Positions 1,342 to 37,880 of a DNA stretch of 64,000 bases are shown here, piece after piece. Location of the stretch: positions 196,890-260,889 of the forward strand of contig JAAYDC010000014.1 in NCBI GenBank assembly GCA_012729455.1. Direction: 5' to 3'. Made by a program: the position numbers and the translations under genes. Every line of letters begins with the position of its first letter. The first letter of the stretch is position 1. The notes under the pieces are model-generated. The model saw nothing but the letters and a program-made list of their open reading frames with translations. It did no database searches and was not told the DNA's origin. This DNA comes from Chloroflexota bacterium. Its GTDB lineage: Bacteria > Chloroflexota > Anaerolineae > UBA1429.

Positions 1342-1503
1342 ATGGCACGGCGCAGCGCTTCTCGGCCGGGAGCTGCAATTGCAGAATGGGTGGTCGTCAC
1401 GATCATCCTGACGATCGCGACCTTTGCGCTCCTGCAGGCGGTCGGCCCGGAGCTGGTCGGCTTTATCCAGCAGGCACTGGAAAAGATCAAAAGCATCTTT
1501 TAA
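1342..1503 (+). CDS. Small Flp/TadE-like prepilin candidate (53 aa)
   Basis: Own translation MARRSASRPGAAIAEWVVVTIILTIATFALLQAVGPELVGFIQQALEKIKSIF*; basic leader, G-AAIA-E prepilin-peptidase-like motif, single hydrophobic helix; below the size limit of the ORF track. Confidence 0.55.
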   Translation: MARRSASRPGAAIAEWVVVTIILTIATFALLQAVGPELVGFIQQALEKIKSIF

Positions 1504-1555
1504 CAGCCGTCCACGTTTGACGCCGCTCCCGGATTCTCTATACTGGCAAACAGGG

Positions 1556-1629
1556 CGGGGTGTAGCGCAGCCCGGTAGCGCGCAGCGTTTGGGACGCTGA
1601 TGTCGGAGGTTCAAGTCCTCTCACCCCGA
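1556..1629 (+). tRNA. tRNA-Pro (anticodon TGG)
   Basis: Acceptor CGGGGTG/CACCCCG, anticodon loop gtTTGGGac, T-arm GGAGGTTCAAGTCCTC. Confidence 0.9.
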
Positions 1630-1633
1630 CTGT

Positions 1634-1706
1634 GCGGGCGTAGCTCAGTTGGCAGAGCTCCTGCCTTCCAAGTAGGTTGTCGCGCGTTCAAATCGCGTCG
1701 CCCGCT
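1634..1706 (+). tRNA. tRNA-Gly (anticodon TCC)
   Basis: Acceptor GCGGGCG/CGCCCGC, D-arm GCTCAGTTGGCAGAGC, anticodon loop CTTCCAA, T-loop GTTCAAATC. Confidence 0.92.
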
Positions 1707-1708
1707 CT

Positions 1709-1743
1709 GAGCCTCCCACGCGTTGGGAGGCTCGGTTTTTTTC
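1709..1743 (+). terminator. Rho-independent terminator after the tRNA pair
   Basis: GAGCCTCCCA-cgcg-TTGGGAGGCTC followed by GGTTTTTTTC. Confidence 0.9.
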
Positions 1744-1772
1744 TTGACCATAGCCTGCCATCATGATATGAT
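1744..1772 (+). promoter_or_regulatory. Sigma-70-type promoter for the 1795 operon
   Basis: TTGACC (1744-1749), 17-bp spacer, TATGAT (1767-1772). Confidence 0.6.
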
Positions 1773-1794
1773 GGTGGGCAAGCGTTAGCAGGAG

Positions 1795-2013
1795 ATGGGT
1801 AAAGGAAGCGATATGTTTAAATCGTTAAGATATCTCATGGGCATCTGGGTGGGAGCCAATATCATTGCCCTCCCGCTTGTGTTCTTGGGCTTGCTGATGT
1901 CGACCGGCAAGATCCCAGTGCCGACCCGTGCCGGCGGTGAGTTGCTGGAAGTAGACGAGGCTGTGGCTCAGGCCAAGCTGTTGGTCAAGCAGATTCCAGG
2001 AGACTTGCGATGA
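1795..2013 (+). CDS. Small hypothetical membrane protein
   Basis: 72-aa ORF with one hydrophobic segment, overlapping the next ORF by 4 bp. Confidence 0.5.
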   Translation: MGKGSDMFKSLRYLMGIWVGANIIALPLVFLGLLMSTGKIPVPTRAGGELLEVDEAVAQAKLLVKQIPGDLR

Positions 2014-2282
2014 ACAAATCACCGTTAAAGGGTTTTGTACTGGGCTTGTTAGGACCGATCTTTTTCATCGCCGCCGTCGTGTTGTGGGTGCGGCGCTTTA
2101 CCGGCAAGGTGCCTTTCCCGGTCTCCAAGCCTTCTGATGGCGAGCTGACCTGGCGGTTGGTACCGCCCGAGCAGGTGTCCAGCCTTGTGGATCGGTGGAA
2201 AAAGGACATGCAGGTCCCGCTCAGCAAACTGCAGCAGGGCGTTGCCGATATCCGAGCTCAGATCCTCGGCGATACAAACTAA
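2010..2282 (+). CDS. Small hypothetical membrane protein
   Basis: 90-aa ORF, N-terminal TM helix; followed by a terminator. Confidence 0.55.
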   Translation: MNKSPLKGFVLGLLGPIFFIAAVVLWVRRFTGKVPFPVSKPSDGELTWRLVPPEQVSSLVDRWKKDMQVPLSKLQQGVADIRAQILGDTN

Positions 2283-2425: not shown

Positions 2426-3466
2426 ATGGAAGCGGAAGGCAAAGTCAGAGCTCTGGAGACCACTGTCGCGCAGATTAAAAAGCGCTTTGGCGAGGGCTCG
2501 ATCATGAAGCTCGGCGATTCCACCACCATGACGGTTGAAGCGATCCCGACCGGCTGTCTGGCGCTCGATATGGCACTAGGGATCGGCGGGATCCCGCGCG
2601 GACGCATCATCGAGATCTATGGCCCAGAATCCTCTGGCAAGACGACCTTGTGCCAGCACATTATCGCCGAATGCCAGCGTCTGGGCGGTGTAGCCGCCTT
2701 CATCGATGTCGAGCACGCGCTCGACCCGTCGTACGCAGCCAAGTGCGGGGTAGATGTCGACCAGCTGTTCATCTCGCAGCCCGATACCGGCGAGCAGGGA
2801 CTCGAGATCACTGAGGCACTGGTTCGCAGCGGGGCGGTTGACGTAGTGATCGTCGACTCGGTGGCAGCGCTGGTGCCGCAGGCTGAGATCGAGGGCGACA
2901 TGGGCGATTCGCACATGGGACTGCAGGCCAGGCTAATGTCGCAGGCACTGCGCAAGCTAACCGGTGCGATCAAGCGTTCGAACTGCGCGGTGGTCTTTAC
3001 CAACCAGCTGCGCATGAAGATCGGGGTGCTGTATGGCAACCCCGAGACTACCAGCGGCGGCAACGCCCTAAAGTTTTATGCCGCCATCCGACTGGATATG
3101 CGCAAGATGGAAGCCATCAAGCAGGGCGGCGAGGTGATCGGCAACCGCGTGCGCGTGCGTGTGAAAAAGAACAAAGTCGCGCCGCCGTTTCGCGTGGCCG
3201 AGTTCGACATCATGTTTGACCATGGCATCTCCAAAGAGGGCAGCCTGCTGGATGTCGGCGTCGAGAGTGGCATCATCGAGAAACGTGGTTCTTTCTTTTC
3301 GTTCGGTGAGACGCGCCTTGGTCAGGGCCGCGAGAACGTCAAAGTGTTCCTGCGCGATAACCCAGAGATCGCTGCGCAGATCGAGCAAGCCATCCGCAGC
3401 ACCAGTGTGGCACTGAAAACCAGTGCGGCAGGCGAGTACGATGACCAGGGCGATTCGGAGAGCTGA
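2426..3466 (+). CDS. recA: Recombinase RecA
   Basis: [10 protein letters not shown] Walker [11 protein letters not shown], full RecA core. Confidence 0.98.
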
Positions 3467-32135: not shown

Positions 32136-33863
32136 ATGCAAAAAACGGACTTCTTTATTAGTTATACTGAAGCAGACAAAAAATGGGCAACCTGGATCGC
32201 TTCAGTACTAGAGGCCAACGACAAAACCACATATTTAATGGCTTGGGATTTCAAGCCAGGGGATAATTTCGTTAAAAATATGCATGATGCACTAAGAAAC
32301 TGTGAACGATTCATTGCGGTTCTATCCGCTAGATACATGGGAAAGGTATATTGTCAGGCTGAGTGGACAGCGGCATTTACCAGAGACCCAAGCAGTGAAA
32401 AAGGTTTATTTATCCCAATCCGTATAGACGATTATCAACCTGAAGGTTTATTAGCACCAATTATCTATGTTGACCTCTTTGGGGTAGAAGAATCTGAAGC
32501 AAAAGAAAGACTGATGCAGATAACCGAAAAAGGCATACCAAGAACCAAGCCTGGCTTTCCCGGCACAAAGAAGCCGAGGTTCCCGGGGCAACTTCCTTTT
32601 AACAATATACCCTATACCAAGAATCATCACTTTACAGGACGAAAAGAAATCCTTAATGAGCTGATGGGATTCTTAAAACCTGGTGAGAGTAATCCTAATT
32701 CCATCGTCCTATGTGGTATGGGAGCTGTTGGGAAAACACAGATTGCACTTGCCTATGCACTAAACAATGGATATTTGTATGACACCATCTGGTGGGTCAA
32801 TGCAGAATATACGATTGCGTTGCTGAATTCATATCAGGACCTATTGTTGCAAAAAGGTATTATAAAGAAGAACATTTCATATGAAGAATCTGACATATTG
32901 CAATCTATTTGGGGATGGATGTCACAACAGCCAAACTGGCTGTTTATCTATGATAATGCGGAAAGCGAAAAGGAATTAGCAAAGTACCTCCCGCGCAGCA
33001 ATACGGGGCACATTCTGATTACCTCAAAAAGTCCGGAATGGCGTAATGTGGAAAAGATAAAAGTGGACGTATTTCAGCCACAGGAGGCAGTGGACTTTTT
33101 TAGTAGTTTCAAGCTAGAACAAAGTATTGACGATGCAAAAAAACTTGCCAAGGAACTGGGATATCTGCCGCTGGCTCTGGACCAAGCGGCAGCCTATATG
33201 TTGGAAAATGACAAGTCCTATCAAGAATATACTGATCTTTTCAAAAAATACCGGCTTGTATTATTTGAAAATGTTGAATATAAGTCCATTTCCTACGAGC
33301 AAACTGTTGCTACGACTTGGAATATTTCCCTAGATAAAATAAATAAAAGTGCGAAACAACTGCTCAAGCTTTTCGCTTTTCTGGCGCCTGATCATATTCA
33401 TAAGGATATGTTCCTCCAAAGCAGTGAATATCTGCCTGAACCATTGGCAAGCGTTGTTAGAGACGAACTGAAATTCGACGAGACTACGAGAGACCTTACA
33501 CGATATTCGCTGATCCAAACCGATAAAGGCCAGTTCCGCATTCATCGTTTGCTTCAGGAGGTAATCCGACAATCCTTAAAAGATAAAGTCCAATGGTTTC
33601 ACCATTGTGTAGGGATTCTATACAAGCTGTTTTCATATGGTCAGTATGATATGGAAACATGGGATATATGTGCCAGGCTGATGCCCCATGTACAATCGGT
33701 CTTAACACACGAAGAATTGAAAACAGAAACAGAAGAAATAGCCGGCTTGTATGCAGCAGGGGCACAATGGTTACATCATACCGCGCAATATGAAGAATCG
33801 CTCGAATGGCACAAAAAGGCATTAGCGATTCGAGAACAAGTCCTGGGTCCTGACCATCCGTAA
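32136..33863 (+). CDS. TIR-NB-ARC-TPR STAND NTPase, C-terminally truncated
   Basis: TIR: DFFISYTEADKKWATWIASVLE, CQAEWTAAF; NB-ARC: GMGAVGKTQIALAYA, WLFIYDNAE; start of TPR ending ALAIREQVLGPDHP*. Confidence 0.9.
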   Translation: MQKTDFFISYTEADKKWATWIASVLEANDKTTYLMAWDFKPGDNFVKNMHDALRNCERFIAVLSARYMGKVYCQAEWTAAFTRDPSSEKGLFIPIRIDDYQPEGLLAPIIYVDLFGVEESEAKERLMQITEKGIPRTKPGFPGTKKPRFPGQLPFNNIPYTKNHHFTGRKEILNELMGFLKPGESNPNSIVLCGMGAVGKTQIALAYALNNGYLYDTIWWVNAEYTIALLNSYQDLLLQKGIIKKNISYEESDILQSIWGWMSQQPNWLFIYDNAESEKELAKYLPRSNTGHILITSKSPEWRNVEKIKVDVFQPQEAVDFFSSFKLEQSIDDAKKLAKELGYLPLALDQAAAYMLENDKSYQEYTDLFKKYRLVLFENVEYKSISYEQTVATTWNISLDKINKSAKQLLKLFAFLAPDHIHKDMFLQSSEYLPEPLASVVRDELKFDETTRDLTRYSLIQTDKGQFRIHRLLQEVIRQSLKDKVQWFHHCVGILYKLFSYGQYDMETWDICARLMPHVQSVLTHEELKTETEEIAGLYAAGAQWLHHTAQYEESLEWHKKALAIREQVLGPDHP

Positions 33864-34399: not shown

Positions 34400-35032
34400 A
34401 TGGCTTTTGATTTTAAAAAGGAATACAAGGAATATTATATGCCAAAGAATAAGCCTTGTATTGTCAGTGTTCCGAGAATGAATTATATCGCGGTGCGGGG
34501 GCAAGGAAATCCTAATATTGAGGATGGTGAGTACAAGCAGTCAATAGGTTTACTGTATGGTGTCGCATTCACGATTAAAATGAGCAAATTGGGTGACCAT
34601 CGGATCGAAGGATATTTTGATTACGTTGTCCCTCCGCTGGAAGGGTTTTGGTGGCAAGATGGTATTCGTGGAATCGATTACGGGCAAAAGGCAAAATTCA
34701 AGTGGATTTCAGTCATCCGCTTGCCTGACTTTGTAAAAATAGCCGACTTCGACTGGGCTGTTTCTGAAGCAACGAGGAAAAAGAAAACAGACTTTTCCAA
34801 GGTAGAGTTTATGACTTATGACGAAGGGCTGTGTGTCCAGTGCATGCACATCGGTCCCTACGATAATGAGCCTGCAACTGTTTCACTTATGCACGAGTAT
34901 ATGGAAAGTCAGGGATATGCTCTGGATATTACGGACAAGCGTATGCATCATGAGATTTACCTAAGTGATGCACGCAAGGTGACTGCTGAAAAACTAAAAA
35001 CCGTAATTAGACATCCGATAAAAAAGGTATGA
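34400..35032 (+). CDS. GyrI-like small-molecule-binding domain protein
   Basis: IVSVPRMNYIAVRGQGNPN...GLLYGVAFTIKM...CMHIGPYDNEPATVSLMHEYMESQGY; AT-rich composition. Confidence 0.85.
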   Translation: MAFDFKKEYKEYYMPKNKPCIVSVPRMNYIAVRGQGNPNIEDGEYKQSIGLLYGVAFTIKMSKLGDHRIEGYFDYVVPPLEGFWWQDGIRGIDYGQKAKFKWISVIRLPDFVKIADFDWAVSEATRKKKTDFSKVEFMTYDEGLCVQCMHIGPYDNEPATVSLMHEYMESQGYALDITDKRMHHEIYLSDARKVTAEKLKTVIRHPIKKV

Positions 35033-35794: not shown

Positions 35795-35824
35795 ATGCAT
35801 TAAAACAGGGCTCTCATGCATTAA
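35795..35824. promoter_or_regulatory. Phased 9-bp direct repeat upstream of the ECF sigma gene
   Basis: ATGCATTAA at 35795-35803 and 35816-35824, centre spacing 21 bp. Confidence 0.45.
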
Positions 35825-35847
35825 CCTGGTGAGAGCAGGAGATCGAG

Positions 35848-36429
35848 ATGGCCCTCAGCCTGACATCAGCAATCGAATACCGCCATGATACGGATCCGCG
35901 TTTACTGGATGTCTTCCTGGAAGCGATCGCCCGGGGTGACAAGGCAGCACTCACGGAACTGTATCATCGCACGAGTGCCTCGGTCTATGCTTTTGCGCTC
36001 TCTATCTTGCGCAACGCGAGCGACGCGGAAGATGTGTTGCACGATACTTTTGTGACCATCTTTACAGCCGGCGCCACGTATCGTTCGCAGGGCAAACCGA
36101 TGGCCTGGATCCTGACGATCACACGCAACCTTAGCTTGATGAAGCTGCGTCAGGAATCCAGAACCAGCGAGTTGTCGCAAGATGAGTGGGCGCTGATGGC
36201 AGACGAGCACCAGGGGTTGACCGCCGATGATGCGCTGGTTTTGCACAAAGTGATGCAAAACCTGTCGGATCAGGAACGGCAGATAGTCGTACTCCATGCT
36301 CTGGCAGGCTTCAAGCACCGCGAGACGGCCTCGCTGCTGAAGATGCCGCTGCCGACCGTGATTTCCAAGTATAATCGCGCAGTCAAAAAGCTGAGGGGAC
36401 TGCTCGTGAGAGGAGAGCGACAGTCATGA
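35848..36429 (+). CDS. ECF-type RNA polymerase sigma factor
   Basis: Region 2 (ALSILRNASDAEDVLHDTFVTIF) and region 4 (LSDQERQIVVLHALAGFKHRETASLLKMPLPTVISKYNRAVKKLR). Confidence 0.93.
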   Translation: MALSLTSAIEYRHDTDPRLLDVFLEAIARGDKAALTELYHRTSASVYAFALSILRNASDAEDVLHDTFVTIFTAGATYRSQGKPMAWILTITRNLSLMKLRQESRTSELSQDEWALMADEHQGLTADDALVLHKVMQNLSDQERQIVVLHALAGFKHRETASLLKMPLPTVISKYNRAVKKLRGLLVRGERQS

Positions 36430-37829
36430 AAAACAGCGAGATCGAAGCGCAAGTTCGCCGTGCGTTCACCCGAGCGACACCGGACGTCCTGGATGCTGTC
36501 CTCTCCGATTGCCAGGCACAGAAAGGGAGAGTGATCATCATGCCAGTCGAAAAACCAAGCAATCCGTGGGTGTTCCGCTTTGCAGCCATCGCCGCAGCCT
36601 TTGTGTTCCTGTTCCTGGGGGCCGCCGGCTACTTTATCTACAACCGCGATAACGCCGTAGCATCGACCGTCTCGCTGGATGTAAACCCCAGCATCGAGAT
36701 TACCGCCAACCGCAAGGAACGCGTGCTGGCAGTCCGCGCGCTCAACGAAGAAGGGCGCACTGTGATCGGCGATATGGACCTGACAGGCAGTAGCCTGGAT
36801 GTCACCGTTAACGCTCTGATCGGCTCAATGGTGCGTAACGGGTATCTCAATGACCTCGCCAACTCGATCCTGGTCAGCGTGGATAACGCCGACCCGACGG
36901 TTGGGGCGGCGCTCGAGGAAAAGCTCGCCAGAGAAATTAACAAGCTGCTGGCCAACTCGGCCTTTGATGGCGCTGTGCTCTCACAGACGGTGCATCCCAG
37001 CTCCGAGCTGCGCAAACAAGCCGAGATCTATGGCATTACCTTGGGCAAGGCCCAACTGATCAAGCTGATCATCGACAAGAATCCGAATTATCGTTTTGAG
37101 GACCTCGTGCCGCTCTCGATCAACCAGCTCAGCCTGCTGGCCAGCTCGCAAAAGCTGCAGTTGGATAGCGTTACATCGATCGGCCGCGCCAGTGAAAAGG
37201 GCCTCATCGGTGCCGACCGCGCCCGCGAGATCGCCCTGCAGCACGCCAATGTGTCCGCCTCGGATGTGGTCAAGGTCGAGCTGGATTACGAAAACGGTGT
37301 GCTGGTTTACGAGGTGGATTTTGTGGCGGGCGGCTTTGAGTACGAGTACGACATCAACGCCACCAACGGCACTGTTATCAAGCACGACAAAGATACCATT
37401 GTCGATATCAAGAGCAGTGACGGCACCCGCACTCCGCGTGCGACGCCCACCGCCTCGGCTTATATCACCGCCCAGCGTGCCAAAGAAATCGCCCTTGCAT
37501 ATGCCGGCGTCAGTACCGAAGACGTGCGCGAGTTTGAGATTGAGCTGGATGATGACGACGATGACGACGACGAGATCGGCGTTTATGAGATCGAGTTCAA
37601 GGCCGGCGGCGACGAGTACGAGTTCAAGATCGATGCGCGCAACGGCACGATCCTGAAATTCGAGCGCGATCGCGACGACGACGCTGCTCGGTCGGCTTCC
37701 AGCCATGATGACGATATGGATGACGACGATGATGGCGATGACTACGATGACGACCATCATGACGATGACCATGATGACCATGATGACCACGATGACGACC
37801 ATCACGATGATGACGATGACGACGACTAG
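36426..37829 (+). CDS. RsgI-like anti-sigma factor with two PepSY-like repeats and Asp/His-rich C-terminal tail
   Basis: One TM (FAAIAAAFVFLFLGAAGYFIY), VSLDVNPSIEITANRKERVLAVRALNEEG, repeats RAREIALQHANVSASDVVKVELDYENGVLVYEVDFVAGGFEYEYDINATNGTVIKHDKD and RAKEIALAYAGVSTEDV...YEIEFKAGGDEYEFKIDARNGTILKFERD, then D/H tail. Confidence 0.88.
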   Translation: MKNSEIEAQVRRAFTRATPDVLDAVLSDCQAQKGRVIIMPVEKPSNPWVFRFAAIAAAFVFLFLGAAGYFIYNRDNAVASTVSLDVNPSIEITANRKERVLAVRALNEEGRTVIGDMDLTGSSLDVTVNALIGSMVRNGYLNDLANSILVSVDNADPTVGAALEEKLAREINKLLANSAFDGAVLSQTVHPSSELRKQAEIYGITLGKAQLIKLIIDKNPNYRFEDLVPLSINQLSLLASSQKLQLDSVTSIGRASEKGLIGADRAREIALQHANVSASDVVKVELDYENGVLVYEVDFVAGGFEYEYDINATNGTVIKHDKDTIVDIKSSDGTRTPRATPTASAYITAQRAKEIALAYAGVSTEDVREFEIELDDDDDDDDEIGVYEIEFKAGGDEYEFKIDARNGTILKFERDRDDDAARSASSHDDDMDDDDDGDDYDDDHHDDDHDDHDDHDDDHHDDDDDDD

Positions 37830-37845
37830 AATCTAGTCACGTAAT

Positions 37846-37880
37846 AAAACAGGGGCAGCTTTCGCTGCCCCTGTTTTTTG
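37846..37880. terminator. Bidirectional rho-independent terminator
   Basis: AAAACAGGGGCAGC-tttc-GCTGCCCCTGTTTTTTG between convergent genes. Confidence 0.9.

Follow-up and report, generated by a model that had tools for sequence, protein, structure and literature searches.

We describe a two-gene operon of a Chloroflexota bacterium, which is probably a self-regulated transmembrane signalling switch: an ECF sigma factor of the ordinary stress type is probably kept in check by a membrane protein whose RsgI-type domain cleaves itself. The operon lies in a window of 64,000 nucleotides (the whole stretch of DNA that was analysed) and its features are collected in Table 1. Operons of the same kind, in which an ECF gene is followed by a gene for RsgI_M, mostly with one to five PepSY repeats, recur across Bacillota. 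This suggests that the self-cleaving domain of RsgI, studied mainly as a sensor of SigI and cellulosome systems, also serves a broad ECF family in that phylum.

The product of the upstream gene matched Sigma70_r2 (3.9e-14) and Sigma70_r4_2 (4.7e-10) in a profile search, contains regions 2 and 4 only, has a length of about 190 residues and is encoded beside a membrane anti-sigma gene, as is characteristic of ECF sigma factors; the original prediction had named an ECF sigma rather than SigI as the partner, and both matched regions are of the ECF type. Its stop codon and the start codon of the following 467-residue ORF share the four bases ATGA (36426-36429), precisely the overlap that had been claimed. 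Since a strong intrinsic terminator lies just behind the second gene, the transcript most likely ends there and the unit is most likely bicistronic. The Rfam search gave no match near the operon.

Table 1. Features of the sigma/anti-sigma operon (positions in the window)
Feature	Position	Strand	Basis and remarks
Bipartite promoter-like element TGCATTAAAA-N11-TGCATTA, proposed -35/-10 of a sigma autopromoter	35796..35823	+	conserved upstream
ECF sigma factor gene, regions 2 and 4 only	35848..36429	+	193 aa; profile matches
Putative membrane anti-sigma factor gene, RsgI_M + 2 PepSY + acidic tail	36426..37829	+	467 aa
Cytoplasmic N-terminal segment, residues ~1-46, proposed sigma-binding part	36426..36563	+	two predicted helices; without RsgI_N
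Single TM helix, residues ~47-76	36564..36653	+	hydropathy and structure model
RsgI_M domain, residues 80-213	36663..37064	+	Pfam, 4.3e-28; Foldseek
Predicted autocleavage bond Asn87-Pro88, in the turn that joins beta1 and beta2	36684..36689	+	alignment
Two PepSY repeats, residues ~250-324 and 345-415	37173..37670	+	profile and structure model
C-terminal 41-residue Asp/His tail	37704..37826	+	composition; degenerate GAY/CAY repeat (TRF)
Intrinsic terminator closing the operon	37846..37877	+	14 pairs, strong; directly after anti-sigma stop

The position of the 467-residue protein in the operon and its RsgI_M homology make it a putative anti-sigma factor. One transmembrane helix, the motif VSLDVNPSIEI and two PepSY-like repeats had been read from the sequence and all are present where they were placed; profile searches returned both RsgI_M and PepSY, the latter in two stretches (1.7e-23). 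An RsgI-type central domain with an Asn-Pro site, likewise part of the original prediction, is supported by the RsgI_M profile and by alignment to RsgI2 of C. thermocellum: DVNPSIEI forms residues 85-92, and Pro88 aligns in phmmer with residue 1 of the RsgI2 chains 8heq_B and 8hdj_B, in agreement with the autocleavage reported for RsgI (PMC12203970). In an AlphaFold model, built from six sequences and reaching a mean pLDDT of 72.7, the bond Asn87-Pro88 is placed in a turn between strands 80-85 and 89-94, the N-terminal segment is modelled as two helices at low confidence (pLDDT ~40-57) and the acidic tail is unstructured. Foldseek matched the periplasmic domains of RsgI from B. subtilis and C. 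thermocellum (8t9n, 8hdj and 8hep, TMt 0.63-0.71) as well as the PepSY structures 4exr and 5boi. The transmembrane helix contains the XAA motifs FAA, IAA and GAA.

Searching with the 467-residue protein after removal of its tail, we found relatives of some kind in 149 of the 292 sampled genomes from the class of the Bacillota MAG G566, many of these matches being weak or confined to one domain; members were present in 7 of 296 genomes from the order of G567 (E <= 1e-30) and in 14 of 298 from the class of G569 (E <= 1e-25). In most loci examined, an ECF gene lies directly upstream, often with the ATGA overlap, so that the pairing is no one-off, and the idea that it is new or atypical was not borne out. 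All 15 ECF-type members scanned contain RsgI_M and 13 of them PepSY; the residues D85, N87, P88 and S89 are invariant in a 15-member alignment, and the N-terminal segments of the family members align with each other. RsgI_N (PF12791) is the known SigI-binding domain. The window protein showed no match to it at E <= 1, nor did any of the 15 scanned members at E <= 0.1, a result to be read against a weak control, in which one of two SigI-type RsgI proteins matched, and that one below the cut-off. Given that RsgI_N was not detected and the partner is not SigI, we regard the window protein as a variant of the RsgI kind and not as a classical anti-SigI factor. Two loci, L004 and L005, hold SigI-RsgI pairs, likewise with polyAsp tails; together with the ECF-type members they reveal two branches, ECF-type and SigI-type, which both use RsgI_M. 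In the CC-licensed papers to which the literature search extended, and in which absence carries little weight, nothing combined PepSY and RsgI and no description of an ECF + RsgI_M family was found. One cluster of L004 (1064-7154) contains, apart from its SigI-RsgI pair, an RsgI_M-PepSY lipoprotein bearing DTDYGPN repeats, and presumably also a CotH-like protein and VTC-like and DUF4956-like genes. PepSY-less RsgI_M genes of L010 and L093 adjoin small secreted proteins with DxDGDGxCD motifs.

The compared upstream regions yielded the consensus TGCAATAAAA-N11-TGCATTA, in which the spacer of 11 bases is fixed, and which mostly stands 20-25 nt before the ECF start codon, just ahead of the ribosome-binding site. 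It occurs in 13 of 39 upstream regions with at most one mismatch and in 17 with at most two (these regions are not independent, as close relatives share ancestry), and a good copy is lacking in over half of the operons sampled. At up to two mismatches it was found in none of 390 mononucleotide shuffles, and it was absent from every one of 100 shuffles of the 64-kb window. The copy in the window is the only one at <=2 mismatches in its own 2.6 Mb genome, no other target being found there at this threshold. In seven Bacillota genomes, each element with 0-1 mismatch precedes the ECF gene of that genome's own operon, and sites with two mismatches mostly fall inside ORFs or lack a clear gene. Exceptions are L093, where such a site stands directly before a gene for a small secreted protein and an RsgI_M gene, and L100, where it directly precedes a histidine kinase gene in a cluster of two-component and PepSY-polyAsp genes as in L006; both are near the chance level (0-2 per genome in the reversed-pattern control), and the one in L100 may be due to chance. 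The scan counted strict matches only and could miss looser targets. ECF sigma factors commonly, not universally, transcribe their own operon, and judging by its sequence and placement, the element may well be the autoregulatory promoter of this one. Such a motif lets ECF + RsgI_M systems and their targets be found.

The occurrence of this operon in Chloroflexota calls for an explanation. RsgI_M was detected in a single one of the 299 genomes searched from the host class and of the 300 from the host phylum, in both cases the window's own. Family- and order-level searches around G603 matched G603 alone. A tree built from the joined sequences of sigma and anti-sigma places the window pair as sister to L015 (support 0.963) inside the Bacillota set, and each of the two proteins shares 49% identity with its L015 counterpart. 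With RsgI_M otherwise missing from the sampled class and phylum and the pair nested in Bacillota, horizontal acquisition is likely, although not proven, since the tree was midpoint-rooted without an outgroup. In composition (GC 0.56-0.58, GC3 0.68-0.73) the operon comes close to the host window (0.60) and differs widely from L015 (0.44), so the transfer, if real, was not recent. The view that the operon is instead a contaminant or a vertical relic has in its favour that no donor was identified, that the tree had no outgroup and that composition alone is no proof of transfer. Against it stand the position of the operon deep within contig C10 (of 260 kb or more) between ordinary housekeeping-type genes on both sides, its approach to the host GC and the solitary occurrence of RsgI_M, and we hold this reading to be very improbable. 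The same solitary occurrence bears on the upstream element, whose attribution to the sigma factor we infer and which contains a near-repeat, TGCAWTA ... TGCATTA, as might an operator of another regulator. Yet the fixed spacer and the distance of about 20-25 nt from the start codon are promoter-like, and element and operon occur together in a genome whose sampled phylum is otherwise devoid of RsgI_M, so that a Bacillota regulator is unlikely to be present; an operator is thus a decidedly poor candidate compared with the sigma autopromoter. That operon and promoter apparently crossed into another phylum suggests a switch that is portable and self-sufficient. Upstream of the operon, in an AT-rich stretch (GC 0.41), a STAND/defence-like protein with TIR, NB-ARC and TPR parts is encoded at 32136-33863 (+); its TPR part stops early and same-frame codons beyond are TPR-like, so a premature stop has probably cut the protein short. 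The GC content falls to 0.37-0.43 between 31900 and 35000, across this gene and a GyrI-like gene (34400-35032), which suggests that a small acquired island lies near the sigma operon.

The acidic tail needs to be weighed in a similar way. The claimed count of 30 Asp and 8 His in 41 residues is exact, the others being one Met, one Gly and one Tyr. Tails rich in D/H or D also end the proteins of L003 and L016, and D/E-rich tails those of L055 and L069, while tree neighbours of tail-bearing members have none, some of them carrying extra PepSY repeats instead. The original prediction was to fall if all close orthologs lacked the tail; it is missing in L015 and similar in L003 and L016, which makes it an optional accessory rather than the defining sensor. 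We conclude that extracytoplasmic PepSY/RsgI_M proteins repeatedly carry such a tail as an accessory, and its composition renders binding of cations or polycations plausible. That the tail itself would be the sensor, gating autocleavage-dependent sigma release by putative binding of cations (Ca, Zn, Ni) or polycations, draws on this extreme composition, on the similar tails found in L003 and L016 and, in L004 and L005, on RsgI proteins of the SigI type and on RsgI_M-PepSY lipoproteins, and on the stretch HDDDMDDDDD common to the window and L003, which may reflect common descent, low complexity making this a weak argument. We consider it unlikely, given that the nearest relative found, L015, has more PepSY repeats and no tail, that members with a tail do not group together in the tree and that the number of His residues varies (window 8, L003 5, L016 1). 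Alternatively, GAY codons may have expanded with little or no selective effect at a C-terminus that tolerates it, the tail then having no signalling role. This would agree with the degenerate GATGACGAC repeats reported by TRF and with the patchy distribution; it is doubtful too, if a little less so, for the longest perfect repeat has only 18 bases and GAT and GAC are evenly mixed, so that the tail is not a product of recent slippage, and several proteins of the RsgI_M/PepSY type end in comparable tails. Two extracytoplasmic-looking proteins ending in D/H/E/K-rich tails are also encoded at 1483-2208 (-) and 2836-3303 (-) of L002, a locus that the query matched through its PepSY-tail portion and that belongs to G047, a genome of the same class in which RsgI_M was not found; tails of this acidic kind may be more widespread among such proteins.

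Taking the tail as an accessory and the upstream element as the autopromoter, we propose a two-gene switch of self-cleavage, proteolytic cascade, sigma release and autoregulation, a scheme that we regard as probable. The N-terminal helical segment (residues 1-46) would hold the ECF sigma at the membrane, and the extracytoplasmic RsgI_M would cut itself at Asn87-Pro88 and stay together as a clipped beta-sheet. Engagement or pulling of the ectodomain, that is, of the PepSY repeats and here also of the acidic tail, by a cation, a cationic polymer or a surface might then free the first strand. An M50 protease of the RseP type, a gene for which is present in the same genome (1e-55), could subsequently cut the transmembrane helix, and a Clp-type protease could digest the sigma-binding fragment, favoured by the XAA motifs; in RsgI, the XAA motif is recognised by ClpXP (PMC12203970). 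The freed sigma would finally transcribe its own operon from TGCAWTAAAA-N11-TGCATTA. This cascade is modelled by homology on RsgI of C. thermocellum, the later steps on RsgI6, and it is in the RsgI proteins of that organism alone that the chemistry of Asn-Pro cleavage has been tested. It is conceivable, if very improbable, that the module is self-contained and senses and sheds: with its own promoter as the one strict site of the sigma in the genome, activation would chiefly yield further anti-sigma ectodomain, the self-cleaved PepSY-polyaspartate/histidine part of which would itself be the effector, for example as an anionic buffer of cations, either released or kept at the surface.

Among known systems, the SigI/RsgI pairs of B. 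subtilis and C. thermocellum (RsgI1-9) share with the window protein a single transmembrane helix with XAA motifs, RsgI_M with its Asn-Pro and a variable C-terminal sensor. They differ in that SigI takes the place of the ECF sigma, that RsgI_N was not detected in the window protein, and that a carbohydrate-binding module serves as sensor in place of PepSY and an acidic tail. The nearest precedent found is Sigma24C-Rsi24C of C. thermocellum (Cthe_1470-1471), which is listed together with the SigI/RsgI pairs and in which, too, a sigma not named SigI is paired with a membrane anti-sigma bearing an extracellular module (PMC3990059); its sensor, however, resembles GH5. RsiV/SigV and RsiP/SigP also lose their membrane anti-sigma through regulated intramembrane proteolysis, but require a separate site-1 cut, which self-cleavage of the window protein, by analogy with RsgI, would replace. 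The Bacillota operons (L003, L015-L018, L020-L023, L053 and others) are of the same family; they agree with the window in gene order, N-terminal segment, RsgI_M and PepSY, and in many cases in the upstream element, and vary in the number of PepSY repeats and in the acidic tail.
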